IMG/VR virus record: IMGVR_UViG_3300032163_000104
Span: 1 to 23,916 of that record
Source of the DNA: a virus
Length of the DNA: 23,916 nucleotides
Direction: 5' to 3' (one strand)
The notes beneath the pieces are model-generated. The model did not search any database and was not told the origin of the DNA. It was given only the letters and a program-made list of their open reading frames with translations. Of the stretch, positions 76 to 21,489 are shown in pieces (positions within the stretch are counted from its first letter, which is position 1; the number at the start of each line of letters is the position of its first letter). The position numbers and the translations under genes were made by a program.

Positions 76-609
76 TTACTCATGAGTTCCTCCTCTCGGT
101 CGCGCTATATAATCAAGGATCGCATCCCTGATCTCTTGCCAATCCTCATCCTGCACCATCAGGAAGGGCCGCGCCGGTATGTTCATCTTGCGCTGATGGC
201 TGCGAACCACACCTATGCCCTTTGCAATGGTCTTCTTGCCCTCCTTAATATCCCTGGTCTTCACCTTCCTGGTATGCTGCCCCACGCTCACCGTACCGCT
301 GTAGCCGAACTGATGCACTGCCGCATAACGCACGTTAGTGCCGATCTCCACGCGGTCATTGAATGCCGCGTAGGTGATGGACTTCCTGAGCCTGCCGGTG
401 TGGGTCAGGGTCTTGTCGTCGGTGTATAGTGCGCGTCTTGATAATCTCCAGGGCGGACGACCCTCTTCGTCAAAGTTTTTTTCGACTGAACGCCTCACCG
501 TCTCGCCTATCAGCTTCATTACGGGCGTCAGGTTTTCTCCGCGATCCTGCATGCCCTTCAGCAGGTCTTTGACCTTTTGGTCCTCAACCTTTATCTCGAT
601 TATGGGCAC
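76..609 (-). CDS. Virion morphogenesis protein, Mu gpG-like (Phage_tail_S family)
   Basis: This 177-residue protein matches the phage virion morphogenesis family typified by Mu gpG, which acts at the head-tail junction and is needed for correct tail attachment. Family features are visible: an N-terminal helix with a DLLKGM-type motif, a central PPWRLSRRALYTDDKTLTHTG stretch (about residues 52-71) followed by LRKSI, a VRYAAVHQFG segment near residue 94, and an IPARPFL motif near residue 145. The start is GTG at 609-607, preceded by AAGGAGG with a 6-base spacer, which is better than any nearby ATG. The gene follows the gpF-like gene, as in Mu. It ends in TAA, and the next gene begins 13 bases further on. 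Assignment is by motif recognition only; the family is well conserved in order and length. Confidence 0.88.
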   Translation of the reverse strand: MPIIEIKVEDQKVKDLLKGMQDRGENLTPVMKLIGETVRRSVEKNFDEEGRPPWRLSRRALYTDDKTLTHTGRLRKSITYAAFNDRVEIGTNVRYAAVHQFGYSGTVSVGQHTRKVKTRDIKEGKKTIAKGIGVVRSHQRKMNIPARPFLMVQDEDWQEIRDAILDYIARPRGGTHE

Positions 610-722
610 TTGACACCTCCTTGTGATTGAGACATACTAAACTTAACTGGACGGCGCAGGGACACACCCCGATGACCGCCGTCGTAGCGACGCAGCTCAG
701 GTGTGTCGGGCTGTAGTCTCAT
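600..722 (-). CDS. Possible 40-residue small protein between gpF-like and gpG-like genes
   Basis: An ATG at 722-720 overlaps the TGA stop of the gpF-like gene (ATGA arrangement). It opens a 40-codon frame beginning MRLQPDTPELRRYDGG and ending in TAA at 602-600, ten bases inside the gpG-like gene. The overlaps at both ends are what translational coupling would produce, and the frame fills an otherwise 109-base gap in a tightly packed operon. Against it, there is no recognisable family, it is short, and the same DNA contains a long inverted repeat that may be a structural RNA element. It could be a coupling leader peptide or chance. Confidence 0.35.
   Translation of the reverse strand: MRLQPDTPELRRYDGGHRGVSLRRPVKFSMSQSQGGVKCP
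661..707 (-). repeat. Extended inverted repeat (RNA hairpin) between gpF-like and gpG-like genes
   Basis: Eight-base arms GACACACC (661-668) and GGTGTGTC (700-707) are perfectly complementary. Inside them TGA/TCA (673-675 with 697-699) and CGTCG/CGACG (680-684 with 688-692, loop TAG) extend the structure. No U-tract follows on the minus strand, so it is not a classical terminator. It could be an mRNA processing or stabilising element between two cistrons. It overlaps the possible small ORF. Confidence 0.5.
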
Positions 723-1945
723 CTTCCCCATAAAAGCCTCCCCTGCCTGAGATTACTGAGAGCCGAATCCGATCCCCTGTAATACGTCATACCGGTCCAT
801 AAACCATTTGTAGTCTCCGCTACCAGGCCGAGGGTAGTCTTTTTGTCGAGCTGCACGGACTTCACGTACTTCTCCCTCACCGCATAGAGGCCGCTCTCCT
901 CATTCCGCGCAAAGTTGACCCATATCTCATAAGGGTCCGTTATCAGTTCGGGGATAAAAGGGAAATACGCCTCCCTGCCGTCCCAGCGCATTTTCGGATT
1001 TTCCATCATATGATCTGCAAGGGCTTGGTTGATCATCACCGTCTCGCCTGACGGATTGGTGAAGTACGCCTCCTCGCCGCCAATAGCATTTTTCAGCGCC
1101 TGCCTCAGTGCCGCTTCAGTTCGTGCTGTCGGCCCGACTGCAGCCTGAGGCTTATCTGTGGGCACCCGGTCGGGCCTGCTGTACGCCGAGGACTTCCACG
1201 GGTCCACATCCCCCCACCTGCCAGCATCTGCTTTATCCATTGCCGTTGCTGCCCAGTTTCGTCCCCAGGCCGCTTCGCCTGGATTGTGATCCCAGCCCGG
1301 ATCGATGCCCCTGGGTATGGTCATGATCTCGCCGGTGTGCGGATTCGTCCACTTATAAGTGCCGTCATCCGGGGCGGTGGTGATAATGTCTCCCGATCCC
1401 TTAAACCGATCATAATCTCTACCCGAGAGATTCTCCACCGCGCACCGTCAGCCCCAGCCGCAGGGCGGGAAATGACTCTGCCACCACGGATCATCGTATT
1501 TGAGCGTTACGCCGTCCCATTGCCGGTGCAGGGGCCGCACACGGGTATCCCGCATGGTCTTATACCTCCAGTAGGGCATGGCCGCCAGTACGTCCGGATC
1601 GGTCATCTGTTTGTAGCGGCCCGCCGAGTAAGCTACCGATAGATTAGTATTGAAGATCACGCCCGTCCTCCAGCCGTACTCGCCCTTGTACGTCCAGCCC
1701 GTTTTGTTGACAGTCGCGTTGAAGTCTTTGCGGAAGTCCTGGATGGTTCCGCCCTTGGCGATGCTCTTGTCCACGGCCCCGCGCAAATCGGCCAGCAGTT
1801 CCGCCTTGTTCGCGCCCGCCACCACAAACGCCGGCGCGTGCATACCGCCCATGAGGTCCGTCCACCGCTGGGTGGGCAGATCCACCTTATTGCGAAAATA
1901 ATCTATCGCCTCGTTAAAGGGAAGGTCCTGCCAGTCGGCGCTCAT
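719..1945 (-). CDS. Mu gpF-like minor head protein with in-frame UGA (likely selenocysteine) and C-terminal PBECR-like nuclease domain
   Basis: Read through one TGA at 1450-1448, this is a single 408-residue frame. Residues 1-165 are a typical Mu gpF/SPP1 gp7 head morphogenesis domain, ending DPWWQSHFPPCGWG. The family continues with C-R-C, and here the codons read TGA-CGG-TGC, giving C162-x3-U166-x-C168. The C-terminal part (about 280-408) resembles the PBECR (barnase/EndoU/colicin-like) nuclease domains often fused to gpF, with PELITDPYEIW near its start and LRQGRLLW at the end. The start ATG overlaps the portal stop (ATGA). No ribosome binding site precedes the first codon usable after the TGA (GTG at 1438), so separate translation is unlikely. 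A SECIS-like hairpin lies just downstream. TGA ends many other genes here, so UGA is not globally reassigned. A simple nonsense mutation or sequencing error remains possible. Confidence 0.75.
1414..1432 (-). promoter_or_regulatory. SECIS-like stem-loop downstream of the in-frame UGA
   Basis: On the minus-strand mRNA a perfect 7-bp stem AAUCUCU / AGAGAUU encloses the loop CGGGU. The loop begins 22 nucleotides after the UGA at 1450-1448. Bacterial SECIS elements lie inside the coding region, have a short apical loop with a G in the first two positions, and sit roughly 16-37 bases from the UGA. The E. coli fdhF loop likewise carries a GGU core. All these criteria are met by eye. SelB binding is inferred, and no bulged U like that of fdhF is obvious. 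Confidence 0.65.
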
Positions 1946-3435
1946 TGCTTCACAGTAAAGCGGCCCGCAAGCTCTGCTACGGCAAAGGCCTGTTCCATAA
2001 GGGTGCCCAGGGCGTTGACATCCATGTCTTTGTACGCCTCGACAAGCTTGTCGCGCAGCTCTTCCAGGCTCTGCGCCTCATTGATCATCGCTTCGATGGG
2101 AGCCCACATTCCCGTCATGGCCGCTGATGCCTCTTTGTTCATGCGGTTCGCCATGCTGTCCAGCGGGCTTATAGCATCTGCTGTCGTCGTATCCGAAGCC
2201 GAAAACTGAGACGTAGTTTGTGCCGTGCCTGCATCCTCTATATCTTCATCGTCCAGGCTGTAGTTCTTCTTGTAATAAGTCCTGGTCAGGCTCAGGCCTG
2301 ATTTTTCCATGGCTGTCGTCAGCTTATCGTCGCGCTCAGCTAACGTTAGGTCCACGTCCTCCTCTTTATATAGACTGAATGTCGGTGGATTCCCGGATTG
2401 GAAGTTCAACTCGTCAATCCAGATGATAAGCTGATTCATCGTGCTCTCGCAGAGCCTTTTATCTCCCAGGACGATATCGTTTCGCACTTCCATGTGCGTC
2501 TGTGATGTAGCATACGATCCTTTTTCTCCGACCTGGGTGGTTAGAGTTTGCCCCACGATCGCCTTGCTCACCTCACTATCGGCAAACGTCAGAAACTTTT
2601 CGTATATATCCGAACTCCCGCTTGAGCCTTTGCTCTCGATCATCGAGATGCTCCCGTCATCAGGCGTAACCGCTACCGCGTCTGTGACCATGCGTTCGAG
2701 GATATCGTAGAGATCATCATATTCTTTTTTGCCTAATCCGCGCGGCAATTTGCCCCATAAAAAAGGCATGCCGAATTTCTCTAAAAACGTTACCCAGAAC
2801 TTATAGCCACCCTTTTTAAAAGTTACCGGCCAGAAACAGCGTGACAGGAGCGGAAATCCATAGGGATTATCATATGTCGGCTCATAACGCGCAAAGAGAA
2901 ACTGTTTCGGCGGAAGCTCTTCACCCAGGATCATATCTACCTTGGTCAGGAAACGTGGATTGTTGGATGCGTCAAAGGCAAACCAGTTCCGGGGCTTCCC
3001 GACAACGTCGATCGGAAGTATCCAACCGCCGACCTTTCCCCATAAGACCTCCAGGGGCTGATACCCGCACAGCGGAGCATTAAGGATCTCTCCGATAATC
3101 CTGTTCATGTCGAGAGCCTGAAGCGCATCTGAAGTGATCTTCGCCTGTCGGCTCTTTGCTTTGCCCCGATCTACAGACCACTGCATGGATTGCACTCCGC
3201 TTTTGCGGTTGATGACGCATGATCCCACGTGCGCGTCTGAGAGCAGCTCGTTATAGACCTTGATGTTTTGCCCGGATTTGCGCAGTACAGGGTCAGGGTT
3301 CGGCAGGTACATGCCGAGGTTGTAAAAATCGATTGACCGGTCCCTGGTCGCGATCTCCTTGCTCAATGAATTCCCGGCGTCTCCCGAGAATTCCGTAAAT
3401 GTATGCTGATCTATCCAGATGCCCTGTCTACCCAT
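1942..3435 (-). CDS. Portal protein, DUF935 family (Mu gp29-like)
   Basis: This 497-residue protein matches the DUF935 portal family of Mu-like phages, which forms the dodecameric ring through which DNA enters and leaves the head. Visible family features are the N-terminal YLPNPDPVLRKSG segment (about residues 43-55), the DAHVGSCVINRKSGV stretch that follows, the GYQPLEVLWGK motif near residue 125, the RYEPTYDNPYGFPLLSRCFWP motif near residue 185, and a C-terminal acidic and Ala/Met-rich helical tail. Length is normal. The ATG at 3435 has GGGAGGT seven bases upstream. The TGA stop overlaps the ATG of the gpF-like gene, so the two are probably translationally coupled. The order TerL, portal, gpF is that of Mu. 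Confidence 0.93.
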   Translation of the reverse strand: MGRQGIWIDQHTFTEFSGDAGNSLSKEIATRDRSIDFYNLGMYLPNPDPVLRKSGQNIKVYNELLSDAHVGSCVINRKSGVQSMQWSVDRGKAKSRQAKITSDALQALDMNRIIGEILNAPLCGYQPLEVLWGKVGGWILPIDVVGKPRNWFAFDASNNPRFLTKVDMILGEELPPKQFLFARYEPTYDNPYGFPLLSRCFWPVTFKKGGYKFWVTFLEKFGMPFLWGKLPRGLGKKEYDDLYDILERMVTDAVAVTPDDGSISMIESKGSSGSSDIYEKFLTFADSEVSKAIVGQTLTTQVGEKGSYATSQTHMEVRNDIVLGDKRLCESTMNQLIIWIDELNFQSGNPPTFSLYKEEDVDLTLAERDDKLTTAMEKSGLSLTRTYYKKNYSLDDEDIEDAGTAQTTSQFSASDTTTADAISPLDSMANRMNKEASAAMTGMWAPIEAMINEAQSLEELRDKLVEAYKDMDVNALGTLMEQAFAVAELAGRFTVKQ

Positions 3436-3526
3436 GCGTTAAACCTCCCTGCATTGCTTGTTAACTCCTTTTAGTTTTGCCCATACCGCCCTGACCTATG
3501 CCTATGTATGCCCTGACAGCTGAAAT

Positions 3527-3540
3527 GGCCCTGTAGGGCC
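3527..3540 (-). repeat. Small palindrome in the TerL-portal gap
   Basis: GGCCCT and AGGGCC are perfect 6-bp arms around a 2-base centre, six bases beyond the TAA of the large terminase gene. No U-tract follows on the minus strand. The rest of the 111-base gap (3436-3546) holds only the portal ribosome binding site and a 7-codon ORF that I do not consider a gene. The hairpin may protect the terminase mRNA end or may have no role. Confidence 0.35.
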
Positions 3541-3546
3541 TTAGAT

Positions 3547-5199
3547 TTAGTCGTACCCTCTCAGGATGCTGCTCGATTCCCGTTTGCTTCTGGATGCGAC
3601 ATAGACAGGGCCTGAATTCGCCTTGCTCCTGGCAATGACAGCCAATGCCTTTGCCCAGAAGTGGTCGGCATGCCCGATCTGCTCTGTCCTGTCGGCATCG
3701 AACCTGAAATGTCCTGTTTCAGTGGCTGTCTTCTTCACGCTGTGCAGGCTCTGCCGGATCACCTGGTCTGCGGGGATCATGTCCTTGCGGTCTTCAAAAC
3801 TCTGTTTGATCGCATGGGCCAGCACTTCTTTATTAGCCGGTGTAAAAGTGATACCCTCTACTCTGCTCGGCCCAAATACCTCCAGGGCTCTTTCCGCAAT
3901 ATCCGCGCCGATGCCGGTTTGGTCGATACAGCCGCGCCTGAACCTCGGCAATCTCATGATCGCAAAGAGCACATTCCTCTGGACTCCGAAGGGCTGCTTC
4001 TTAAGCGCGATGGCGGCGCGTGTCACATAAATACCGCTGTGGTCCTCATCCAGCCAGATGATTGATAAATCCCGTATGCGTGCAACGTCAAAGCCGACGT
4101 GGAGATCTCCAATGAACGGGACCTCCTCTTGCAGCCAATGCGGATCGAATATGGGAGGACTTTGCAGATGCTTATATAGAGCGTGATGTTCCACCGCCTC
4201 ATTGATAAGGCGCTCCACCCATGAAGGCTCAGCCAGGAGCCTGACATCCTCCACAGTCTCTATCAGGTCATAGGGCAGCCATGCCGTGGCCTCGTCAACA
4301 AACTCGACCAGGTATTCCTGGTGCCAGGCCTCATCATCATTAAGAGCCAGGCGCAGGTCTTCCGGCTCAATAAGCACGCCGTCCTCATCGTATATCTCAA
4401 GGCCAAGTTCAACAGCCTGGTCAATTGTGCAGTTGTGTTTGGAGTATCCGCCGCGCTCGCCCTTATGCTCATAGTCATGGCCGTCGAATATCTGCAGCGT
4501 CTTGGCCGTCCACAACTCATAGAACTTGTTCTTTTTGCCCTGGGGCGTCGAAATGATACGGATTTTGTACCCCCGGGTAACTGTAGGGAAAAGGGCCTTC
4601 CATATTTCCCTGGAGTCTTTATGAAATGCGAACTCATCGAGCAGGATGTTGGCGCTGTGTCCACGGGCAGTGCTCGGGTTAGCGGGGAGCCCGATGATGC
4701 GCGAACCGTTAGGGAAGAGTATTTCGAGCTGCTTGTACTCAGTTTTATTGTTTTCGTCCTTGAAGCTATCTGTAAGCTCGGTGATTGCTGCATTGATCGC
4801 ACGGGCATGAATTGCGGCGGTGCGCATCAACTCCTTTGATTGACGTTCACCGGCTGAAAGAAATACCCATGTAGTCCCCGGATGCTCGAAACAGTCGATA
4901 ACCGCTTCCAGCGATGTGGCAAATGATTTGCCCGCCTGTCTTGACCACTTTCCGATCTTGAACCTGGACTTATCGTTCACCCATCGCTTCTGGTATTCCG
5001 TAAGCTTTATGATGGGGTCGATGGTGGATTGAGATGTGAGCGTAGTGGCAGGCTGCTGGTTTCCGGTCTTGACCACTCCCTTGGTCTGAGGAGGCTTGGG
5101 GGTTGCGAGTGCAGGCAGTCGGTCAATTATCAGCAGCAGGCCAAAGGCAAGCAATAGGCCCAGTAGATATGTTCGGAGCCGCTTATGCTTTGAGGCCAT
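3547..5199 (-). CDS. Terminase large subunit, Mu gp28-like, with an N-terminal hydrophobic segment
   Basis: This is the packaging ATPase and headful nuclease (550 residues). The ATPase region shows TEYQKRWVNDKSRFKIGK (about 67-84), a Walker A-like KWSRQAGKS (84-92), Walker B NILLDEF with D188/E189, and the coupling motif ISTPQG (216-221). The RNase H-like nuclease shows D371 in VGFDVARIRDLS, D426 in CIDQTGIGAD and D512 in GHADHFWAKA. An unusual N-terminus comes before the ATPase: residues 1-10 are basic, 11-25 are a strongly hydrophobic run, and RLPALA-TP resembles a signal peptidase site. A proline/threonine-rich linker to about residue 65 follows. The ATG at 5199 has AAAGG five bases upstream and overlaps the small terminase gene by 17 bases. 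An in-frame GTG at about residue 42 lacks a properly spaced ribosome binding site. Confidence 0.93.
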   Translation of the reverse strand: MASKHKRLRTYLLGLLLAFGLLLIIDRLPALATPKPPQTKGVVKTGNQQPATTLTSQSTIDPIIKLTEYQKRWVNDKSRFKIGKWSRQAGKSFATSLEAVIDCFEHPGTTWVFLSAGERQSKELMRTAAIHARAINAAITELTDSFKDENNKTEYKQLEILFPNGSRIIGLPANPSTARGHSANILLDEFAFHKDSREIWKALFPTVTRGYKIRIISTPQGKKNKFYELWTAKTLQIFDGHDYEHKGERGGYSKHNCTIDQAVELGLEIYDEDGVLIEPEDLRLALNDDEAWHQEYLVEFVDEATAWLPYDLIETVEDVRLLAEPSWVERLINEAVEHHALYKHLQSPPIFDPHWLQEEVPFIGDLHVGFDVARIRDLSIIWLDEDHSGIYVTRAAIALKKQPFGVQRNVLFAIMRLPRFRRGCIDQTGIGADIAERALEVFGPSRVEGITFTPANKEVLAHAIKQSFEDRKDMIPADQVIRQSLHSVKKTATETGHFRFDADRTEQIGHADHFWAKALAVIARSKANSGPVYVASRSKRESSSILRGYD

Positions 5200-5593
5200 A
5201 CATACCTTTGATCATTTCTATGACCTCAGGGGAGTACTGGTTCTGCCCCGGCTTCTTGCTCTCTTCGCCGGTGCTCTCTATCTGGAGCTTGATCCCTCCA
5301 TAGCTTTCATATGCCTGGATGGATCTAAGGAGGGCCAGGATGTTCTTGGGGGTGGGCTCCGCCTCAGCGTTCTGGAGGGTGATGTCTACAAGGTTCTTAA
5401 GCTGAACCTTGGTTTCCTTGTTTTGCTCAAGATGCTTTTTTCTCTTGTTCTCCCACTCACCGTCGGTCTTCCAGTTATATAAGGTTTTTCTGGAAACCTT
5501 TTTGCCGAGCATGCCGACGATCGCATCGAGCGAAAAACCTTCGCGCACAAATAGCCGCTGGGCATCTTCGTAATAAAGAGCTGTCTTACCCAT
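5183..5593 (-). CDS. Probable terminase small subunit (DUF1804/Mu gp27-like, HTH)
   Basis: The 136-residue protein begins with a helix-turn-helix that matches small terminase subunits of Mu-like phages: EDAQRLFVREGFSLDAIVGM (about 9-28), then KKVSRKTLYNWKTDGEWENKR. It is followed by a helical region with NILALLRSIQAYE and a C-terminal YSPEVIEMIKGMYG that may contact the large subunit. The small subunit recognises phage DNA and recruits the large subunit for packaging. It lies directly before the large subunit and overlaps it, as expected. The start ATG lies 8 bases inside the preceding gene. The exact Pfam family (DUF1804 or DUF3486) cannot be settled by eye. Confidence 0.8.
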   Translation of the reverse strand: MGKTALYYEDAQRLFVREGFSLDAIVGMLGKKVSRKTLYNWKTDGEWENKRKKHLEQNKETKVQLKNLVDITLQNAEAEPTPKNILALLRSIQAYESYGGIKLQIESTGEESKKPGQNQYSPEVIEMIKGMYGLKA

Positions 5594-5846
5594 CGATCCC
5601 CAGCTCCCGTTTATTTTTCCTGATCTCGGCCTTTAGCTCCACAATCTCTTGGTTGAGAGCCCTGAAGTCCCTCAGCGTTATCTCCCCCCTGTCGAGATCG
5701 AGATCCTCGGTCTCCTCGACACTCGGGTCAATAATATCGCGGAGGATGATTATGTAGTTCTCTCCCCGCCGTCTCAGGTCTCTCAGGCGTTTCTCCTTCT
5801 CTGAGAGTCGTGCCTTGGCTAGAATCACCTCGTTCCCCAGGTTCAT
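5586..5846 (-). CDS. Small coiled-coil protein in packaging operon (Mu gp26 position)
   Basis: An 86-residue, highly charged and probably all-helical protein with no signal or membrane segment. Residues 8-32 and 58-82 have heptad-like patterns (for example LNQEIVELKAEIRKNKRELG), separated by an acidic loop VEETEDLDLDRGE, so an antiparallel coiled-coil hairpin is plausible. It overlaps its neighbours on both sides: ATGA with the upstream gene and 8 bases with the small terminase gene. This implies translational coupling in the leftward operon. It lies where Mu has gp26. No function is known to me, and sequence similarity to Mu gp26 cannot be claimed. Confidence 0.72.
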   Translation of the reverse strand: MNLGNEVILAKARLSEKEKRLRDLRRRGENYIIILRDIIDPSVEETEDLDLDRGEITLRDFRALNQEIVELKAEIRKNKRELGIDG

Positions 5847-6169
5847 TCAGACACCTCCAGTCTGATCTTCTTGCCGCCTATCAGAATGGGGCACTGCGCG
5901 GGTGTTTCCATTTTCATCGAGAGCCGGTCGAGAATGCCTGTGAGTTGGAGTTTGTATTCCTGCTCGTCAGTGAGGTACTTCAGAAGCAAGGTATTGAGAG
6001 TGGTGAGTTTGTCGAATGCTTCCTTGCTCTGTGCGAGAGACTGTTTAAGAAAATCATCGGTTTGTTTCTTGGCGCTGGCGAACGTGAAATACCAGATAAT
6101 GAATACGATGATAGCCACTCCGCCCTGTGTTGTAAATTGTATGACATCCTTAAAACTTATGCCGTCCAT
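5843..6169 (-). CDS. Small single-pass membrane protein, first gene of the leftward operon (Mu gp25 position)
   Basis: A 108-residue protein with one membrane segment at about residues 17-32 (VAIIVFIIWYFTFASA), followed by a long amphipathic helix (about 33-90) and a basic tail. The start ATG at 6169 has AGGAGG seven bases upstream. It is the first gene of the minus-strand packaging and head operon. Mu and many relatives have a similar one-TM, coiled-coil protein (gp25/DUF2730) at this place, whose function is unknown. A holin-like role is possible but unsupported, because a separate lysis cassette is present elsewhere in the window. Confidence 0.75.
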   Translation of the reverse strand: MDGISFKDVIQFTTQGGVAIIVFIIWYFTFASAKKQTDDFLKQSLAQSKEAFDKLTTLNTLLLKYLTDEQEYKLQLTGILDRLSMKMETPAQCPILIGGKKIRLEVSE

Positions 6170-6279: not shown

Positions 6280-6411
6280 ATGGAAACCGAAGTTCGCTGT
6301 GAAGGATGTAATCGCCTGCTTGGGATTTTCGCGACTGCAAAAGGGCAGATTAAGTGCCCGCGTTGCAAAAATCTCCAAAAGGTGGACGTAAAAAAAGGAG
6401 GTAGCCTATGA
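6280..6411 (+). CDS. com: Com-like zinc-finger regulator (43 residues)
   Basis: This small gene encodes METEVRCEGCNRLL... with two Cys pairs, C7-x2-C10 and C26-x2-C29 (IKCPRCKNLQKV), the pattern of the Mu Com protein family. Mu Com (62 residues) is an RNA-binding zinc-finger protein that activates translation of the overlapping mom gene. Here the TGA stop overlaps the ATG of the next gene (ATGA at 6408-6411), the same tight coupling as com-mom. However, the partner is an HTH protein rather than Mom. A short UCUCC upstream of the partner's GGAGG could mask its ribosome binding site, which would fit a Com-type switch but is weak evidence. The protein is shorter than Mu Com and lacks its C-terminal tail. 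Confidence 0.75.
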   Translation: METEVRCEGCNRLLGIFATAKGQIKCPRCKNLQKVDVKKGGSL

Positions 6412-6770
6412 GCAACATAATGGAACGCATTGAAAAGCTGGAACGAGACCTTGGGGCGTTGAAGGAAAAGGTTGAATCATCTGACCAATGGAAGGACAAA
6501 TATCTTGCATTGCTTGAAGAGGTTAACGAGAACTTTAAACGTAAATTGGTCAAGAAGCCGCCTCTCACCGCTGAGAACATCGCGCAAGTAAAGGATATGT
6601 ATCGTCGAGGTGTCAGTTTCCGAGAGATAGGACGGGCTGTAGATCGGACGGCCTCAACCATCTATACGGTCCTCTATAATGAACTGCCTGAAGAGGAGTT
6701 TAAGCATCATAAAAAGGTTGCAGGCCGACGTTATGAAGATAAAAGAAAGAAGGAAGGCGCGGGGGAATAA
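6408..6770 (+). CDS. Coiled-coil plus helix-turn-helix protein of unknown role
   Basis: The 120-residue protein has an N-terminal coiled coil (about residues 3-45, MERIEKLERDLGALKEKVE...) and a homeodomain/resolvase-like helix-turn-helix at about 52-90, LTAENIAQVKDMYRRG followed by VSFREIGRAVDRTASTIY. A basic C-terminus completes it. The coiled coil would dimerise it, so it is probably a sequence-specific DNA-binding protein. It starts in the Com-like gene's stop codon with AAAGGAGG upstream. A role as regulator of the divergent operons, perhaps binding the 29-bp palindrome, is an inference from position. It does not look like Mu Mor/C or Mom. A structural or small-terminase-like function is not excluded. 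Confidence 0.75.
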   Translation: MSNIMERIEKLERDLGALKEKVESSDQWKDKYLALLEEVNENFKRKLVKKPPLTAENIAQVKDMYRRGVSFREIGRAVDRTASTIYTVLYNELPEEEFKHHKKVAGRRYEDKRKKEGAGE

Positions 6771-6807
6771 GTATCCGCTAATAATTCAATCTTCAGAGGC
6801 ACCAGAT

Positions 6808-6847
6808 GCCCGGTAAGGCCGACAGGCCGAGCCGGGCTATTTATTTA
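6808..6847 (+). terminator. Terminator-like compound hairpin before the capsid operon
   Basis: GCCCGG (6808-6813) pairs with CCGGGC (6832-6837). Inside it GGCC-GACA-GGCC (6817-6828) can form a second stem. TATTTATTT follows, so the element resembles a rho-independent terminator with an imperfect U-tract. It separates the Com/HTH pair from the protease gene, whose ribosome binding site begins just after it. It may attenuate rather than fully stop transcription, since no clear promoter is visible between it and the next gene. Confidence 0.5.
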
Positions 6848-6860
6848 AAAAGGAGGTAGC

Positions 6861-7940
6861 ATGGGCAAGAGAATCAAGATCAAAGGTTTCCCGGCATTTC
6901 GGGCCGGAACTCATACCGACTCTGCCGGTAATACCAAGCCATGGTCCGATGCTGATATGCAGAGCATGGTCGCAAACTTTAATGCCGACAAGGCTGCGGG
7001 CGGTTTTATTCCAGCTGTTGTAATAGGCCATCCGAAATTAGACAGTCCGCGTTATGGCGACTTCGAGGCAATGCGTGTCCAGGACGGCATGCTCTTTTCC
7101 GATCTCGATGTAGCAGAGGAATTAGTCAATGCTGTAAGAGAGCGCAAACTCATCGATCGCTCGCTGAAGGTAGTCAGTGATGGCAAGGGCGGCTATAAGG
7201 TGCGGCATCTCGGCTTTCTGGGCGCGGTGCCTCCCGCAGTCGAGGGACTCCCTCCTTTTCAGTTCAACGCCGAAGACGAGGGCAGTACCTTTGAGTTTGC
7301 GGATAATCGCATGACTAACGTGGGCGATATCTTCCAGCGGCTGCGCGACTGGTATATCTCCAAGTTCGGGACGGAGACGGCGGACAGCATATTTAGCCAG
7401 TACCAGATAGATGATCTCAAACGCTATATCGAGGATGCGTCCGCCACGGCGGACGCGATGTGTTCATTTAATTCAAATGAGGGAGGTGCAGCAGTGCAGA
7501 AAACAGCAAAGGAGTTGACGCTTGAGCAGGCGCTCGCTGATGCTCAACGACAGATCTCCGAATTCTCCACGAGTCAGAAAGCGCGTGATGACGCGTATTC
7601 AATCACGGTCGAGGAGAATAAGAGGTTAAAGGCGGCCGGTATGGCTGCAGAGTTCAGCGCGTTCTGTGACGGTTTGCCGGAACAGGTTACACCTGCCATA
7701 AAATCCAAGGCAATGGAATTCATGGCTATACTGAGCGGTTGCGAGGAGTTCGAGTTCGCGGAAGGCGACGGTAAAGTCAAAAAGCCACCGGTGGAGGCGT
7801 TCAAGGACTTTTTAAAGGATTTGCCAAAAGCGGTGAGCTTTAGTGAGTTCGCCACCGGCGATAGGGCAACTAAAATCAGCGAGGCCGACCAGGTGGTAGC
7901 CGGTATCGCATCAGCATCACCAAAAGAAGGAGGCAAGTAA
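6861..7940 (+). CDS. Prohead protease/scaffold, Mu gpI-like
   Basis: The 359-residue protein matches the Mu I protein family, a serine protease that matures the prohead. Visible family landmarks are FRAGTHTDSAGN (about 13-24), FIPAVVIGHPKLDSPRYGDF with GHP at 56-58, LIDRSLKV with a candidate catalytic serine S101, and LGFLGAVPPAVEGLPPF (117-133). From about residue 212 the protein is charged and helical, as in scaffolds. An in-frame GTG with its own ribosome binding site starts the scaffold there. The ATG at 6861 has AAAAAGGAGG upstream. The TAA overlaps the ATG of the decoration gene. This is the first structural gene of the rightward operon. Catalytic residues are assigned by analogy, not by alignment. 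Confidence 0.88.
   Translation: MGKRIKIKGFPAFRAGTHTDSAGNTKPWSDADMQSMVANFNADKAAGGFIPAVVIGHPKLDSPRYGDFEAMRVQDGMLFSDLDVAEELVNAVRERKLIDRSLKVVSDGKGGYKVRHLGFLGAVPPAVEGLPPFQFNAEDEGSTFEFADNRMTNVGDIFQRLRDWYISKFGTETADSIFSQYQIDDLKRYIEDASATADAMCSFNSNEGGAAVQKTAKELTLEQALADAQRQISEFSTSQKARDDAYSITVEENKRLKAAGMAAEFSAFCDGLPEQVTPAIKSKAMEFMAILSGCEEFEFAEGDGKVKKPPVEAFKDFLKDLPKAVSFSEFATGDRATKISEADQVVAGIASASPKEGGK
7494..7940 (+). CDS. Internal in-frame scaffold protein (Mu gpZ-like), nested in the protease gene
   Basis: GTG at 7494-7496 is in frame with the protease gene and preceded by GGGAGGT with a 6-base spacer, one of the best ribosome binding sites in the window. Translation from it gives 148 residues, beginning with KTAKELTLEQALADAQRQIS after the initiator and Gln. 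The product has long charged helices (about 5-55) and no protease motifs. The layout copies Mu I/Z and lambda C/Nu3, where the scaffold is the C-terminal part of the protease made separately in excess. Independent initiation is inferred from the sequence signal. Confidence 0.7.
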   Translation: MQKTAKELTLEQALADAQRQISEFSTSQKARDDAYSITVEENKRLKAAGMAAEFSAFCDGLPEQVTPAIKSKAMEFMAILSGCEEFEFAEGDGKVKKPPVEAFKDFLKDLPKAVSFSEFATGDRATKISEADQVVAGIASASPKEGGK

Positions 7941-8896
7941 TGAGCGACAACGTAACAAAGTCCGAAATATTCACCCCTGACAATCTCATGGCCGGTGACA
8001 CCGGGGATGTTGTCGGGCGCACTGGTATCCTCATCACAGGTGAAAACCGCGCAAGGGGTACATTGCTCGGCAGGATCACAAAGAGCTGCCCTGCCACCGG
8101 CGCGGCCACCCAGGGCAATGCAGGCAATGGCACTGTAACAGGCGTCCTCATGGGTCTGTTGGCTATGATCGGGGCCTATGTCCTTAAATGCATCAGCCAG
8201 ACAATGGGAGCTATTTCCACGCCGACTACAGGCACGGCCAATCAGGGCAACGCAGGCGCTAATACTATGACCGGGGTATTAGCGGGAGCCAGGGTAAAGA
8301 CAGGGACATATACTGCTACCTGCATCGACGCCACTGTTGGAGGCTCGGAGGTATTCGAGGTCACAGACCCGGACGGGTTGCTGTTAGCCCCTGCTACGGT
8401 TGGAACTGCCTACGTTGACGCGCAGCTCGAATTCACTATTAATGACCCCGGCGCAAATGCAGAGGTCGGCGATAAGTTCACTGTCCTCGCAAGCGCGGTT
8501 GATAGCAATAGTGGAGTATTCCAGGTCGTAACTCCAAGCGGAGAGCTGCTGGCCCCTGCGGTCGTTGGCTCTCCTTATGTCAGCAAGCATATTAATTTCA
8601 CACTCAATGATGGCACTGACGATTTTGAGATAGGGGATACCTTTACCATTACCGTCGCTGCCGGAAGCTTAAAGTACAAAAAGAGCCTCGCCGCGGCAGT
8701 CGATGGATCCCAGGAGCCCGACGCAATACTCGCTAAAGACACAGACGCTACATCAGCGGATGTCACCACAAGCCTGTATGTCGCGGGACCGTTCAACGAA
8801 AACGCTATCACATACGGGGCGGGCCATACAGCCGACAGCGTGAGGGAAGCCCTCAGGGCAAAGAACATTAATCTACTGCCGTCTGTAACGGCATAG
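7940..8896 (+). CDS. Head decoration protein (lambda gpD-like) with nested internal domain duplication
   Basis: Residues 1-49 (RARGTLLGRIT at 37-47) and 244-292 (LKYKKSLAAAVDGSQEPDAILAKD... then the segment ending GPFNENAITYG) are the two halves of the lambda D-type decoration fold, which stabilises the expanded head. Between them is an approximately 190-residue insert. It has two copies of a GNAG-x3-MTGVL/VTGVL...Y-x5-CI module (about 53-85 and 97-129) followed by two copies of a F-x-V-x3-G-x-LLAPA-VG-x-Y...GD-x-FT module (about 138-183 and 193-240). The order is A-A-B-B. Such glycine-rich inserts are known in decoration proteins of other phages. The length (318 residues) is well above the roughly 110-130 of simple members. 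It starts in the TAATGA overlap with the protease gene and ends just before the capsid ribosome binding site. Confidence 0.85.
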   Translation: MSDNVTKSEIFTPDNLMAGDTGDVVGRTGILITGENRARGTLLGRITKSCPATGAATQGNAGNGTVTGVLMGLLAMIGAYVLKCISQTMGAISTPTTGTANQGNAGANTMTGVLAGARVKTGTYTATCIDATVGGSEVFEVTDPDGLLLAPATVGTAYVDAQLEFTINDPGANAEVGDKFTVLASAVDSNSGVFQVVTPSGELLAPAVVGSPYVSKHINFTLNDGTDDFEIGDTFTITVAAGSLKYKKSLAAAVDGSQEPDAILAKDTDATSADVTTSLYVAGPFNENAITYGAGHTADSVREALRAKNINLLPSVTA

Positions 8897-8919
8897 CGAA
8901 AAAGGAGGCAGATCGAAAC

Positions 8920-10113
8920 ATGAAAAATAAAAACTCGTTATTTAAAACCTTAGCCATATGGGGCCTGCTGCTGGTAGGCAGTCTTCTGGGGATCGGCTTC
9001 CTGGGAGTCGGCTCCCTGGTAATAGCGGCGACGGACAAGAGGCTCCTGCTGGATAAAGACCTGTGGAGCCTGTCGTTCGTAGCATTCGGGACAATCGACA
9101 TGTTCGAGAGCCGGACAATGCTCCAGGCCTTGGAGCAGATGTTCATCCCGAGGACATTTATACTGAATACCTTCTTCAAGATTCAGAACTCGTTCACTAC
9201 CCTGAACGTTGATGTGGACATCATAAAAGGCAAGCGCAGACTTGCGCCGTTCGTCTCGCCTCTATTGCCGGGGAAAATGGTCGAACGCCAGGGATACGAG
9301 ACTCGCAGCGTCAAACCTCCGTATCTCAAGCCCAAGATGATCACAACGGCTGCCGACATAATCAAACGGCAACCCGGCGAGGTCATCTACCAGGGCAATA
9401 TGGCTCCGGCCACACGCGCACAGCAGCAGCTAGGGAAGGACCTTCTGGAACTCACAAACCAGATCACCAGGCGTGAGGAGTGGATGGCGGCCCAGGCGAT
9501 CACGACCGGTGCTGTCGTTTGTGTCGGCGAAGGAACGGATATTAAAGTCGATTTCCTCATGTCAGGTACGCATAAAATCACGCTTATCACTGACGCCCGC
9601 TGGAACCAGTCAACCGGTACGCCGATTACGAATCTCCGGGCATGGAAAAAACTTATATCAAAGGATTCCGGTCTCGGAGCAGACGTGCTGATCGTGGGTG
9701 AGGATGTAATAGGGCCGTTCCTTGCAAATCCCGAGGTCCAGAAAATGATGGACAAAACGAAGATATCCCTCGGTGTTATTGATCCCAAGGAACTGCCCGA
9801 TGGAGTCACCTATTACGGACGGCTGCTCGATCTCTCGATGGACATTTACACCTACGACGAGTATTGCATCGACGACCAGGACGGAGTGACTAAGCCGATG
9901 ATACCTGCCGACTCTATCGTTATGGGCTCGACCAAGGTGAGGGCTGAAAGGCTTTACGGTGCTATCCAGGACCTGGAGGCAATAGCCGCAGTGCCTTTCT
10001 TCCCTAAGAGTTGGACAGAGAAGGACCCCTCTGCCAGGGTTCTTCTGGTGCAATCGGCGCCTCTGCCGAATCCGATCCAGATCGACGGCTTCGTCACGGC
10101 GAAGGTTTTATAG
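8920..10113 (+). CDS. Major capsid protein, E family, with N-terminal hydrophobic extension
   Basis: The 397-residue protein belongs to the lambda gpE-like major capsid family. The core begins near residue 66 with DMFESRTMLQALEQMFIP and continues with GKMVERQGYETRSVKPPYLKPK, ARQ-type helices (AQQQLGKDLLELTNQITRRE), a DVLIVGEDVIGPFLANPE segment and YGAIQDLEAIAAVPFFPKSW near the end. Ahead of the core is an extension of about 65 residues containing FKTLAIWGLLLVGSLL and further hydrophobic residues to about 36, like an uncleaved signal anchor. The ATG at 8920 has AAAGGAGG nine bases upstream. The internal ATG near residue 67 has no ribosome binding site, so the long form is probably real. The prohead protease may remove the extension. 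That is inference. Confidence 0.9.
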   Translation: MKNKNSLFKTLAIWGLLLVGSLLGIGFLGVGSLVIAATDKRLLLDKDLWSLSFVAFGTIDMFESRTMLQALEQMFIPRTFILNTFFKIQNSFTTLNVDVDIIKGKRRLAPFVSPLLPGKMVERQGYETRSVKPPYLKPKMITTAADIIKRQPGEVIYQGNMAPATRAQQQLGKDLLELTNQITRREEWMAAQAITTGAVVCVGEGTDIKVDFLMSGTHKITLITDARWNQSTGTPITNLRAWKKLISKDSGLGADVLIVGEDVIGPFLANPEVQKMMDKTKISLGVIDPKELPDGVTYYGRLLDLSMDIYTYDEYCIDDQDGVTKPMIPADSIVMGSTKVRAERLYGAIQDLEAIAAVPFFPKSWTEKDPSARVLLVQSAPLPNPIQIDGFVTAKVL

Positions 10114-10115
10114 CC

Positions 10116-10289
10116 ATGCGGATCCGCGCGAAACATTCGATCGATGACGGCAAAGTGCATCTGCCCGGAACTATATTCGAAGTCGATGACGACACCGGGC
10201 AGGAGCTTATCGATGCAGGCTCTGCCGAAGAGACGGAAGAGCCTGCTGATAAAAAAGCAGCAGCCACGAAGAAGGCGAAGGGCAAGTAA
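10116..10289 (+). CDS. Small head protein, Mu gp35-like position
   Basis: A 57-residue protein, MRIRAKHSIDDGKVHLPGTIF at the N-terminus followed by EVDDDTGQELIDAGSAEE and a Lys/Ala-rich tail (KKAAATKKAKGK). The pattern of a short beta-rich start with an ELIDAG/AA motif and a lysine-alanine tail is common in the small gene that follows the major capsid gene in Mu-like and other phages. I chose the ATG two bases after the capsid stop. A longer in-frame reading inside the capsid gene is unlikely. The TAA overlaps the next ATG (TAATG). Function is unknown; it is probably a minor head component. Confidence 0.75.
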   Translation: MRIRAKHSIDDGKVHLPGTIFEVDDDTGQELIDAGSAEETEEPADKKAAATKKAKGK

Positions 10290-10732
10290 TGTCCTATTGC
10301 ACCCTGGACGATCTGAAGGCTGCGCTCCCTGAGCGGACGCTCATCCAGCTCACGGATGACGCCGGGGCCGGCGAGGTGGACCAGACCAAGGTGGACGATG
10401 CCGTGCAGTATGCGGGCTCAATGATCGACGGGTATCTGGGCGGGAGATACACACTCCCGCTCGATCCCGTTCCCGCACTGATCAGGGCAGTGGCCGTGGA
10501 TCTCTCTATCTTCCACATCTACAGCCGCAACTCAGACGCGGAAATGCCCAGGACGGTCAGCGATAAGTACCCGAACGCCACAAAGCTCCTCGGGCTGATT
10601 CAGCGGGGAGAGGTCCAGATCGGCGTGACCCCAATCTCAGGATCGGGAGACGGCGGCGGCTCAGGCAGCTACCGGACTAACAAAAGATCGTCCGACCGGG
10701 TATTTGGCCCGGACGTTTTAAAGCGGTTTTAA
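10289..10732 (+). CDS. Head-tail connector, DUF1320 (Mu gp36-like)
   Basis: This 147-residue protein matches the DUF1320 family: YCTLDDLKAALPERTLIQLTDD at the start, AVQYAGSMIDGYLGGRYTLPL at about 40-60, VPALIRAVAVDLSIFHIYSR near 61-80 and a C-terminal Gly/Ser-rich tail with GDGGGSGSY. In Mu this is gp36, a helical head-completion or adaptor protein docked under the portal. The start overlaps the previous stop. In Mu the gp37 gene follows directly, but here a lysis cassette intervenes. Confidence 0.9.
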   Translation: MSYCTLDDLKAALPERTLIQLTDDAGAGEVDQTKVDDAVQYAGSMIDGYLGGRYTLPLDPVPALIRAVAVDLSIFHIYSRNSDAEMPRTVSDKYPNATKLLGLIQRGEVQIGVTPISGSGDGGGSGSYRTNKRSSDRVFGPDVLKRF

Positions 10733-10762
10733 GGGCCTTCTATATCAAAGGTATAGGAATGT

Positions 10763-10778
10763 ATAGGCTTAAGCCTAT
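10763..10778. promoter_or_regulatory. 16-bp perfect palindrome upstream of lysis cassette
   Basis: ATAGGCTT/AAGCCTAT is a perfect palindrome in the AT-rich 102-base gap before the lysis genes. The half-motif GTATAGG also occurs ten bases earlier (10751-10757), giving two direct GTATAGG copies. The spacing and AT-richness suit an operator or promoter for the lysis genes, but I see no convincing -35/-10 pair. Confidence 0.35.
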
Positions 10779-10804
10779 CGATCAAAATTTAAAGGATTTA
10801 ACAA

Positions 10805-10831
10805 GGTCTGGTGATGAATTGAGGCCGGACC
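10805..10831 (+). promoter_or_regulatory. Hairpin immediately before the lysis gene start
   Basis: GGTCTGG (10805-10811) pairs with CCGGACC (10825-10831), seven pairs including one G-U, with a 13-base loop. The loop contains GAGG, the only ribosome binding site candidate for the ATG at 10835. Folding could therefore modulate translation of the long form of the lysis protein, while GGAGG at 10837-10841 would serve the GTG at 10847. Regulation is inference. Confidence 0.4.
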
Positions 10832-10834
10832 ATT

Positions 10835-11779
10835 ATGGAGGATGCCGTGGATTGGATTAAAAAAGAAGGGAAACGGCTGTGGTTGCCTATATTGCTGGGT
10901 ATCGCGGCGTGGTACGGTCTCGGGTCATCAGTCTTCTTTACGGGGCTCGGCAGGCTTGCAATGATCGCCATGGTCTTCGCGGGGGTTAACATACTTCGCA
11001 AATCCTACTGGCCAGGCCTCGATATTGTAGTCTTCGCCAAAAAGACGATTGAAAGCCCTATGGCTTCGTCCGTGGTCTTCACCGTTCTGATGACGTTCCT
11101 TATGGTTATGGTTTCTCTGACGCTCGCTCATGGCGCTATGACCGACGCGACTATACTTGCCAAGGCCCGGCCGCATATGCACATCTTCCGGGCGGTAGTG
11201 GATAAACACTGGCCGGGGGCTCCGAATCCTGAAAACCTCCCTGGTAAAGTCGAGCAGGAAACCTGCGCGACAATGCGGCAGTGCTGGAACTCGCATACAG
11301 AGTTGAAAACGGCACGGGAGTATGGGTTCAGTTATAGTCAGATGACCGTTGCCTATAACAAGGACGGTTCTGAGCGGTTCAATAAGTTCGATGAGGCGCG
11401 GCGACAATATCACGAACTGGTATCGTGGAAATGGGCTGACCGCTACAACGACGAATACCAGTTTATTTTTATCACCCTCGAATCGCGCAGGCTCTATGAG
11501 ACCTATCGTCGCTATTTTACTCACGATGTAGACGCTGAGGCCGCGAGCCTGGTGGCATACAATGCCGGTGGAGGCACTGTGACCGGGCGCATTGCAGTAT
11601 GCAGACACACGACAGGCTGTGATGCTACCCGATGGTTCGGCGGGCTGGATAGTGTGGTCATTCCTGGAGAGCAGCGACTGCTCTATGGCCGCTCATTGCA
11701 TGACCGGCGAAATGAGTACCCGGACAACATCATCAACCGGCGGGCCGCGAAGTACGTCAAACCGTGGGCTGAGGCCTGA
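10835..11779 (+). CDS. Membrane-anchored lytic transglycosylase endolysin, probably a holin-endolysin fusion
   Basis: Residues 16-35, 36-55 and 78-98 are hydrophobic membrane segments. The first two with the following NILRKSYWPGLDIVVFAKK stretch resemble small holin proteins of Mu-like phages, and the third resembles a signal anchor. From about residue 134 the protein matches phage SLT-type lytic transglycosylases: VEQETCATMRQCWN with candidate catalytic E140 or E142, TELKTAREYGFSYSQMT, the YNKDGSERFNKF segment, AASLVAYNAGGG (about 237-248) and CRHTTGCDATRWFGG. It would cleave peptidoglycan from the periplasmic side. ATG at 10835 has only a distant GAGG. GTG at 10847 has GGAGG with a 5-base spacer and may be the main or a second start, giving forms four residues apart. 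Spanin genes follow two bases later. Confidence 0.85.
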   Translation: MEDAVDWIKKEGKRLWLPILLGIAAWYGLGSSVFFTGLGRLAMIAMVFAGVNILRKSYWPGLDIVVFAKKTIESPMASSVVFTVLMTFLMVMVSLTLAHGAMTDATILAKARPHMHIFRAVVDKHWPGAPNPENLPGKVEQETCATMRQCWNSHTELKTAREYGFSYSQMTVAYNKDGSERFNKFDEARRQYHELVSWKWADRYNDEYQFIFITLESRRLYETYRRYFTHDVDAEAASLVAYNAGGGTVTGRIAVCRHTTGCDATRWFGGLDSVVIPGEQRLLYGRSLHDRRNEYPDNIINRRAAKYVKPWAEA

Positions 11780-11781
11780 CT

Positions 11782-12285
11782 ATGCTTATACTTCTGGGCC
11801 GCTATTGGTATCTGGTGGTAATTGCTGGCCTTCTGGCTCTGCTCGGTGTGCAAAAGATGCAGGTTGACTGGCTCCGTATCGACCTGAAACAGGCGCAACT
11901 TAATGTGACGACATACCGGACGGCTAACGCTAAGAATATAGCCGCAATAAGCAGTCTTAAAGCCGAAGTTGAAAATGCGATCGATCTTGGAGAACAGCGG
12001 CTGAAGCGTAAGGGCCGTGTCTTGTCGAGTATCAAGGAGATCGATGACCTGCCGGAACCTCAGGTATGCAAGGGCACGTCAAGCGGCCATCCTATAAACC
12101 AACCGGACGAGGTGACACATGAAGAACGTGACGTTAACAGCACTGATGATCCTATTCTGCGTGAACTTAACAGGATGTATGACGGCTCCGGTGGCAGTCC
12201 AGACGGAGTACATAAAACAACAGGTCCCCCCGCTACCGGACGATCCGGATTATTACCGGGTCATCTGGAAGAAAAACGGCAATGA
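11782..12285 (+). CDS. i-spanin (Rz-like)
   Basis: The 167-residue protein has one N-terminal membrane segment (about residues 8-24, YWYLVVIAGLLALLG), followed by a periplasmic coiled coil (about 28-90) and a hydrophilic tail. This is the architecture of inner-membrane spanins, which join an outer-membrane lipoprotein partner to fuse both membranes at the last step of lysis. It starts two bases after the endolysin stop. The o-spanin gene lies inside it in the +1 frame. The tail (about residues 113-167) is encoded in DNA shared with that gene, so its composition is constrained. Spanins are recognised here by architecture and context rather than sequence similarity. The host must be Gram-negative for this pair to make sense. 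Confidence 0.82.
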   Translation: MLILLGRYWYLVVIAGLLALLGVQKMQVDWLRIDLKQAQLNVTTYRTANAKNIAAISSLKAEVENAIDLGEQRLKRKGRVLSSIKEIDDLPEPQVCKGTSSGHPINQPDEVTHEERDVNSTDDPILRELNRMYDGSGGSPDGVHKTTGPPATGRSGLLPGHLEEKRQ

Positions 12286-12391
12286 TTATTGCCTGGATAC
12301 TGGAAACGCGAAGTCGTTGCTCAAGGACAAGATCCTGACCGAGGGCAATCGTGATGATCTCAAAATTATCATCGAGGGAATGAGACGCTGA
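12119..12391 (+). CDS. o-spanin lipoprotein (Rz1-like), nested out of frame in the i-spanin gene
   Basis: The 90-residue protein begins MKNVTLTALMILFCVNLTGC, a lipoprotein signal with lipobox LTGC and acylated Cys20. A proline-rich segment QQVPPLPDDPDYY follows (about 34-46), typical of Rz1-type o-spanins. The gene starts in the +1 frame within the i-spanin gene and extends 106 bases past its end, an embedded-to-overlapping layout seen in several phages. The C-terminal extension (about residues 47-90) is longer than in the lambda Rz1 and includes a short helix NAKSLLKDKILTEGNRDDL. The following gene starts one base after its TGA. Confidence 0.85.
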   Translation: MKNVTLTALMILFCVNLTGCMTAPVAVQTEYIKQQVPPLPDDPDYYRVIWKKNGNDYCLDTGNAKSLLKDKILTEGNRDDLKIIIEGMRR

Positions 12392-12392
12392 T

Positions 12393-12836
12393 ATGCCGGT
12401 GGATATCCAGACCATAGAGGACACTGTCATCACGGCTCTTAAAGCCGGTATGCCGTACCTGCGTTATTGCGACAGCTACTCGGGCCAACTTGACGAACAA
12501 TCAATATTGATGTTCGTTAAAAACTTCCCCGCAGTGCTGGTCTACCTCGAACGGTCAAAGTACACCAACAGGGGATATCCTCTTAAATGGCGGCATATCG
12601 AATTCGCCATATTTGTGGCCGACAAAAACAGCCGGGGGAATAAAGCAGCTCGGCATGGCGATCTGAATAACCCTGGGACATATCATATGCTCAATGACGT
12701 GTTAGGTGTTCTCCAGGATAAGAACTTAGGGCTTACCGGAATAGATCCCTTTGATGTGGACCGTGAAGACGCCGTTATCAATAGCAGCAAACTCGCCCTT
12801 TATGGGGCGATATATAAAACCAAATATTCAACGTAG
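12393..12836 (+). CDS. Tail terminator/completion protein, DUF1834 (Mu gp37-like)
   Basis: The 147-residue protein matches the Mu gp37 / DUF1834 family: IQTIEDTVITALKAGMPYLR at the start, then SYSGQL, FPAVLVYLERSKY (about 44-57), a WRHIEFAIFVADKNSRG strand region (about 65-82), GTYHMLNDVLGVLQD (about 93-109) and a final ALYGAIYKTKY strand. Members sit at the tail-proximal end of the neck and complete or terminate the tail tube. Position after the gp36-like gene and before the tail tube agrees, apart from the inserted lysis cassette. Ribosome binding for its ATG must come from within the o-spanin gene end (GAGGGAATGAG), with a spacing of about 12 bases. Confidence 0.82.
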   Translation: MPVDIQTIEDTVITALKAGMPYLRYCDSYSGQLDEQSILMFVKNFPAVLVYLERSKYTNRGYPLKWRHIEFAIFVADKNSRGNKAARHGDLNNPGTYHMLNDVLGVLQDKNLGLTGIDPFDVDREDAVINSSKLALYGAIYKTKYST

Positions 12837-12858
12837 GGGCGCACCCGGTGGGTCGCCC
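12837..12858 (+). repeat. Strong GC-rich hairpin after the gp37-like gene
   Basis: GGGCG (12837-12841) pairs with CGCCC (12854-12858) and ACCC (12843-12846) with GGGT (12850-12853), with one bulged C and a GGT loop. It begins at the first base after the TAG stop. No U-tract follows; the next ribosome binding site (AAAGGAGG) comes instead. It may stabilise or limit the upstream mRNA rather than end transcription. Confidence 0.5.
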
Positions 12859-12871
12859 ACAAAGGAGGATC

Positions 12872-13075
12872 ATGCAACCAGGCTCATTTGTAGACGATGG
12901 CAAAGGAGGATTGACGCCGAACATGGCCGACAAGGCCATGGCTGCGCGCCATAAGGCTGATAAAGGGACAGACATCAAAAAAAACGAGCCCGCTGTGCTG
13001 CCTGCAGCCCCTGTGACGGATGACACAACCCAGACGGCGGGAAGAAGGAAAAGGGAGGTCTCAGCCAATGATTGA
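12872..13075 (+). CDS. Small hydrophilic protein before the tail tube gene (Mu gp38 position)
   Basis: A 67-residue, Lys/Ala/Pro/Thr-rich protein beginning MQPGSFVDDGKGGLTPNMAD. The ATG at 12872 has AAAGGAGG with a 4-base spacer and is preferred to an in-frame GTG 24 bases earlier, which lies in the hairpin. The second half is low-complexity and probably disordered. It lies where Mu encodes gp38 (DUF2635) but does not visibly match that family. The TGA overlaps the first codons of the tail tube gene by eight bases, so translation is likely coupled. Function unknown. Confidence 0.7.
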   Translation: MQPGSFVDDGKGGLTPNMADKAMAARHKADKGTDIKKNEPAVLPAAPVTDDTTQTAGRRKREVSAND

Positions 13076-14003: not shown

Positions 14004-14016
14004 AGAATAGCCGTAA

Positions 14017-14041
14017 AAGGGCGAGGCAGCGCCTCGCCCTT
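14017..14041. terminator. Perfect 11-bp hairpin after the tail tube gene
   Basis: AAGGGCGAGGC (14017-14027) and GCCTCGCCCTT (14031-14041) pair perfectly around the loop AGC. On the plus strand ACAATCAAAT follows, so there is no U-tract and it would act as an attenuator or as an mRNA 3'-end protector for the highly expressed tube gene. On the minus strand the hairpin is followed by TTTTA, so antisense transcripts could end here. Confidence 0.5.
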
Positions 14042-14073
14042 ACAATCAAATAAATAAAGGAGATAGATATTTT

Positions 14074-21488: not shown

Positions 21489-21489
21489 C

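Follow-up and report, generated by a model that had tools for sequence, protein, structure and literature searches.

An in-frame UGA codon, very likely decoded as selenocysteine, in the MuF minor head protein gene of a phage and its relatives

The MuF gene and its surroundings

The window, i.e., the whole stretch of DNA analyzed, is a complete IMG/VR virus record of 23,916 bases, which may represent a phage fragment. On its minus strand, a gene encoding a MuF (gpF-like) minor head protein starts with ATG at position 1945, contains an in-frame TGA at 1450-1448 (codon 166), continues for 242 sense codons and ends with a TGA stop at position 719. The features discussed below are the following (all on the minus strand):

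1942-3435: Mu-type portal gene, directly upstream of the MuF gene, with its own TGA stop (Portal_Mu, E 5.9e-94)
719-1945: MuF (gpF-like) minor head protein gene with the in-frame UGA, very likely a selenocysteine (Sec) codon; 408 amino acids if read through; matches to Phage_Mu_F, PBECR2 and phrog_220
1436-1786: Phage_Mu_F domain, residues 54-170, extending across the UGA (E 7.6e-20)
1526-1528: His140, an invariant alignment column; possible partner of the C-x-C site (partnership inferred)
1448-1450: putative Sec codon (UGA) for residue 166, at the first Cys position of the invariant C-x-C; all aligned homologues carry TGC/TGT or TGA
1442-1444: Cys168, second C-x-C position according to the homologue alignment; UGA site in CxU and UxU relatives
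1414-1432: putative bacterial SECIS (bSECIS) hairpin, stem 1432-1426 with 1420-1414, loop CGGGU at 1425-1421; fits the bacterial SECIS model and is supported by family comparison
728-1105: PBECR2 domain, residues 281-406, located 3' of the UGA (E 1.9e-24)

Assignment of the protein to the MuF family is supported by matches above the curated cut-offs of PF04233 (72.2 bits vs. 29.6) and TIGR01641 (41.7 vs. 39.65), and the PHROGs annotation over residues 2-407 is phrog_220, 'minor head protein and DNA pilot'. The C-terminal part matches PF18810 (PBECR2) with 86.6 bits against a curated cut-off of 27.1 and is produced only if the UGA is decoded. Membership of this part rests on the profile match, and nuclease activity is only predicted from it. 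A first-pass annotation, made without database searches, had described a gpF-like frame reading HFPPCGWG-TGA-RC followed by 242 further sense codons with a C-terminal domain. This description held, the domain being PBECR2, and decoding would yield the peptide HFPPCGWG-U-RC. Likewise, the claim that the family normally carries cysteine at the TGA position was confirmed, the residue being the first cysteine of an invariant C-x-C motif. The proposed U-x-C pair held as a family motif, with the addition that Sec is also predicted at the second cysteine or at both in relatives. The further proposed C-x3-U pair failed as a family feature, since Cys162 is peculiar to the window and replaced by Asn in the family.

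Upstream of the MuF gene, genes for the large terminase (Terminase_6N) and the Mu-type portal protein were found, and a virion morphogenesis gene follows downstream; a position after portal and terminase is the usual place of MuF genes (PMC5576092). TGA terminates eight of the 24 listed open reading frames (ORFs), including that of the upstream portal gene, and is therefore an ordinary stop codon here, as had been claimed. The MuF gene contains a single internal UGA, located at a Cys position, and its remaining Cys codons are TGC or TGT. No tRNA genes were found on the phage fragment, and an Rfam search of the UGA region and of the window returned no match.

Some further observations concern the remainder of the window. 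Head genes are divided between the two strands: the minus strand (76-6169) carries those for terminase, portal, MuF and morphogenesis, and the plus strand (6408-23747) those for capsid and tail. The terminase ORF (3547-5199, minus strand) and the major capsid ORF (8920-10113, plus strand), as listed, start with a hydrophobic stretch, and their true starts may lie further downstream. Within the region 11782-12391 (plus strand), an ORF with a lipoprotein-like beginning (MKNVTLTALMILFCVNLTGC; 12119-12391) starts within another ORF (11782-12285) in a different frame, an arrangement resembling nested Rz/Rz1 spanin genes.

UGA codons and hairpins across MuF genes

Among 37 IMG/VR homologues retrieved by protein search, three (L003-L005, 48-49% identical) carry TGA at the first-Cys codon, as in the window, and two (L016, L017) carry it at the second Cys of C-x-C, where the others have TGC or TGT. 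Pattern scans of IMG/VR and GTDB contigs yielded 41 distinct MuF genes with UGA at C-x-C, originating from many samples: 28 at the first Cys, 10 at the second and three at both. The control pattern, in which the neighboring TGG is changed to TGA by one transition, gave no match in the same collection. Patterns with TAA or TAG at either Cys also gave none; these controls carry less weight than they seem to, since a change from TGY to TAA or TAG takes two substitutions, and the TGG-to-TGA pattern is the fair control. Hence, stop codons scattered at random elsewhere in relatives, which the first-pass annotation had named as a refuting outcome, were not borne out: TGA was found at two Cys codons, not at the neighboring Trp codon, and no TAA or TAG occurred in the same context. 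Cys-form MuF genes are widespread, with at least 120 stretches matching. In a tree of 195 homologues, at least 18 Sec/Cys changes are required, and well supported branches by themselves force 12, so that many exchanges between Sec and Cys are deduced within related phages.

Many of the UGA genes stop about 60-70 codons past the motif and lack a C-terminal domain. The three U-x-U genes (L041, L042, L100) are located on separate tree branches, and a diselenide is possible in their products. Three UGA genes (L038, L047, L133) belong to IMG/VR records with isolate-genome-like identifiers; a culturable host may therefore exist. Among named phages, 297 INPHARED records showed a match but were not inspected singly for UGA. 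Several scan matches were discarded as chance, namely five of the seven in reference genomes, L055, L060, L064 and several others, and a two-feature match in Thermus phage Riverbug represented merely a neighboring gene.

Persistence of coding constraint past the UGA was taken as a criterion for decoding and was met in UGA relatives. For three relatives, all with UGA, dN/dS was 0.10-0.11 after the codon vs. 0.04-0.12 before it, from which it is deduced that the part downstream of the UGA is translated in these genes. Comparison of the window gene with its nearest Cys relative showed 63% identity before the UGA and 57% after it.

The first-pass annotation had also pointed to a 7-bp hairpin whose loop, CGGGU, starts 22 nt after the UGA as matching SECIS criteria. 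The bacterial SECIS model (PMC13188914) describes a loop of 3-9 nt, mostly N-G-[G/U]-N-N, with G within the first two loop bases, an upper stem of 4-16 bp, a distance of 16-37 nt from the UGA and a minimum free energy (MFE) of at most -7.5. The window hairpin (stem AAUCUCU/AGAGAUU) meets this model regarding loop, stem, spacing and the MFE of the local structure (-10.7 kcal/mol; -4.8 kcal/mol for the hairpin alone), and the claim thus held. By itself it is unexceptional, with a shuffle z of about 0 for a 53-nt stretch and p = 0.065 for synonymous-codon shuffles, and its significance therefore rests on family comparison, in which the support is strong.

In this comparison, a SECIS-type hairpin below -4 kcal/mol was present in 87% of 38 UGA genes vs. 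25% of 141 Cys genes (p about 6e-12), and in 89% vs. 24% after stricter redundancy removal. Synonymous-codon shuffles gave mean z values of -2.0 for UGA genes and -0.14 for Cys genes, the latter from an initial set of 40. Moreover, a 5-nt loop with G in second position, closing a stem of at least 5 bp, was observed in 31 of 38 UGA genes vs. nine of 80 tries in Cys genes. The stems of UGA genes show compensatory pair changes, with G-U, G-C, U-A, C-G and A-U all occurring at stem position 3. These changes were counted on loop-centered, gap-free hairpins and are biased towards pairing, since the hairpins had been picked for pairing; energies and shuffles compared with Cys genes represent the fairer test. 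A MAFFT alignment for covariation was dropped, as it placed the short hairpins out of register. Loss of the hairpin in homologues retaining TGA, a further anticipated refutation, was not seen: UGA homologues preserve it with compensatory changes, and most Cys homologues lack it. One set of related genes shares a hairpin whose loop begins at nt 28 after the UGA if Sec is predicted at the first Cys and at nt 22 if it is predicted at the second; a single hairpin would thus serve either codon. Five UGA genes (L098, L113, L118, L126, L051) lack a strong hairpin of the standard model; a GGUC-loop hairpin of 6 bp, starting just about 15 nt past the UGA, is present in two of these, L118 and L126.

Two named reference metagenome-assembled genomes (MAGs), of a Desulfobacteraceae bacterium (L078) and a Nitrospirae bacterium (L079), contain UGA MuF copies, and SelA, SelB and tRNA-Sec were detected above curated cut-offs in both. 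Absence of Sec machinery in the host, likewise proposed as a refutation, therefore does not apply to these two. In the Nitrospirae MAG, the 72-kb contig C85 holds both the UGA MuF gene (C85:48586-49242) and selB (C85:28636-30519). Host genes flank the prophage, with rnc, fabF and selB to its left and cobalamin genes to its right; the phage is thus linked to a Sec decoder independently of binning. This prophage (about 31-68.5 kb; L301, L302, L303) lies about 1-2 kb from host selB and looks like a Mu-like transposable phage, so that the closeness may be due to chance. Furthermore, SelB was found in 20 of 22 Cys-carrying genomes of the class of the Desulfobacteraceae MAG. Since SelB is common in such hosts, the host machinery represents a necessary condition that was passed and not an independent proof. 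The second-position UGA pattern was not found in 395 genomes of the phylum of the Desulfobacteraceae MAG. All evidence on Sec machinery refers to hosts of relatives; the host of the window phage itself is not known.

Based on these comparative data, UGA 1448-1450 of the window MuF gene is very likely decoded as selenocysteine, although neither protein nor read data are available. The selenocysteine interpretation of the first-pass annotation is thereby supported overall.

Alternative explanations

An ordinary nonsense mutation, leaving a broken gene, or a sequencing error, in which TGC or TGT was misread in the window contig, could be put forward, since only one metagenome contig without read data is at hand and a single substitution converts TGY to TGA. 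This explanation is regarded as very unlikely: TGA occurs at the same or the neighboring Cys codon in 41 genes from many samples and never at the adjacent Trp codon, dN/dS remains at about 0.1 downstream in UGA relatives, and SECIS-type hairpins are enriched in UGA genes. The existence of independent UGA relatives in particular argues against a sequencing error. A genetic code of the phage or host that assigns an amino acid (e.g., Trp or Cys) to every UGA would also explain that the in-frame UGA is read through. It is practically ruled out by the eight of 24 listed ORFs ending in UGA, among them the portal gene, and by the single internal UGA in the MuF gene, placed at a Cys position while all other cysteines are encoded by TGC or TGT.

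The UGA could moreover be a true or leaky stop codon, giving a protein with the MuF domain only, with PBECR2 reached through nonspecific readthrough or through reinitiation at GTG 1438. In favor of this view, MuF and PBECR2 are separable domains, and partial Sec decoding also predicts a truncated form (PMC4513850). It nevertheless appears very improbable, as the UGA falls within the MuF domain, with the second invariant Cys downstream of it, many UGA genes have no C-terminal domain to be gated, and the restriction of UGA to Cys positions as well as the SECIS fit would remain unexplained. Restart at GTG 1438 was rejected: in agreement with the earlier claim, no ribosome-binding site was seen before it by eye, and the MuF domain extends across the UGA. 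A further alternative accepts UGA as Sec and questions the function of the pair, which might form a metal ligand site together with the invariant His140 instead of a redox or structural bond. This is the main alternative to a bond and remains possible, given that His140, Cys166 and Cys168 are all invariant in the alignment. Sec is known to act as a metal ligand in hydrogenases and formate dehydrogenases. Against a metal site, no solved relative or fold match is available for judging its geometry, and Sec is known to switch between the two positions in the redox motifs UxxC, CxxU and UxxU.

Proposed role and relation to known selenoproteins

Under the preferred reading, the Sec machinery of the host, directed by the bSECIS hairpin at 1414-1432, would decode the UGA. 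The resulting MuF-PBECR2 minor head protein would be 408 aa long and contain a U-x-C motif. Sec decoding is partial, reaching 30-40% in E. coli (PMC4513850), and the window phage is therefore expected to produce both MuF-only and MuF-PBECR2 proteins. Since numerous UGA genes terminate some 60-70 codons beyond the motif, gating of a C-terminal domain is not the general purpose. Sec is inferred to replace one or both invariant cysteines and to take on the job of the Cys pair. The favored possibility is a reversible selenylsulfide or diselenide bond (a disulfide in Cys relatives). Such a bond would be established more easily than a disulfide under the reducing conditions inside anaerobic hosts, i.e., in their cytoplasm, and may fix the MuF fold beside the portal. 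The alternation of UxC, CxU and UxU in MuF genes parallels redox selenoproteins with UxxC, CxxU and UxxU. The function of these residues has not been measured, and the bond role is an inference for which the chances are evenly balanced; the redox switch suggested by the first-pass annotation likewise remains an inference. Neither a PDB profile search nor a fold search with the AlphaFold model (mean pLDDT 81) identified structural relatives of the window protein, so that the geometry does not decide between a metal and a redox site.

MuF proteins have previously been described as head proteins (PMC5576092, PMC5512222), and the window protein shares with the MuF/SPP1 gp7 minor head family (PF04233, TIGR01641, phrog_220) the domain, the gene position after the portal and the C-x-C at the domain end. 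In contrast to what has been described for this family in the literature examined, the window gene and its relatives carry a putative Sec-UGA at one or both Cys codons together with a SECIS. MuF polymorphic toxins and MuF-PBECR proteins (PMC5576092, PMC5512222) are similar in fusing MuF to a predicted RNase-like C-terminal domain; however, cysteine is not mentioned in the main text of these papers, and the C-terminal domain of the window protein requires UGA decoding. Bacterial selenoproteins with UxC, CxU and UxxU (thioredoxin-like Sec.1/Sec.2, Prx-like; PMC13188914) also feature an in-frame UGA at a Cys position, a bSECIS in the coding region, Cys homologues and hosts with SelA, SelB and tRNA-Sec, whereas MuF is a virion head protein rather than a member of an established redox enzyme family, and UxU is not contained in the 2026 table. 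Poxvirus glutathione peroxidase selenoproteins (PMC8310308) likewise represent viral genes using host Sec decoding, but they belong to a eukaryotic virus with a eukaryotic SECIS and are cellular-type enzymes, in contrast to a bacteriophage structural protein.

An inventory from 2026 covering 119 prokaryotic selenoprotein families (PMC13188914) lists no phage, virus, capsid, PF04233, TIGR01641 or UxU, and a 2022 selenoprotein review mentions neither phage nor virus. No report of a bacteriophage selenoprotein was found in the open-access literature searched; a paywalled or unpublished record (e.g., among NCBI protein entries) is not excluded. Judged by that literature, MuF proteins with very likely Sec form a selenoprotein family not described before, seemingly the first one in a head protein of a bacteriophage. 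Comparative sequence data support Sec decoding, the SECIS and a recurrent family with Sec at the first, the second or both invariant C-x-C positions (UxC, CxU, UxU), while no protein has been measured.

A bolder reading, considered likely, is that phages of anaerobic Sec-decoding bacteria repeatedly turn one or both C-x-C cysteines of a virion protein into Sec, so that the particle would carry selenium and its assembly would depend on the selenium supply of the host; the UxU form would be capable of forming a diselenide. If the proposed decoding is true, the range of selenocysteine would come to include bacterial viruses and a virion protein, infection by some phages is predicted to need host selenium, SelA and SelB, and standard gene callers would truncate or split UGA MuF genes of phages. 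Furthermore, the natural series CxC, UxC, CxU and UxU makes the unknown job of the invariant MuF Cys pair directly testable.
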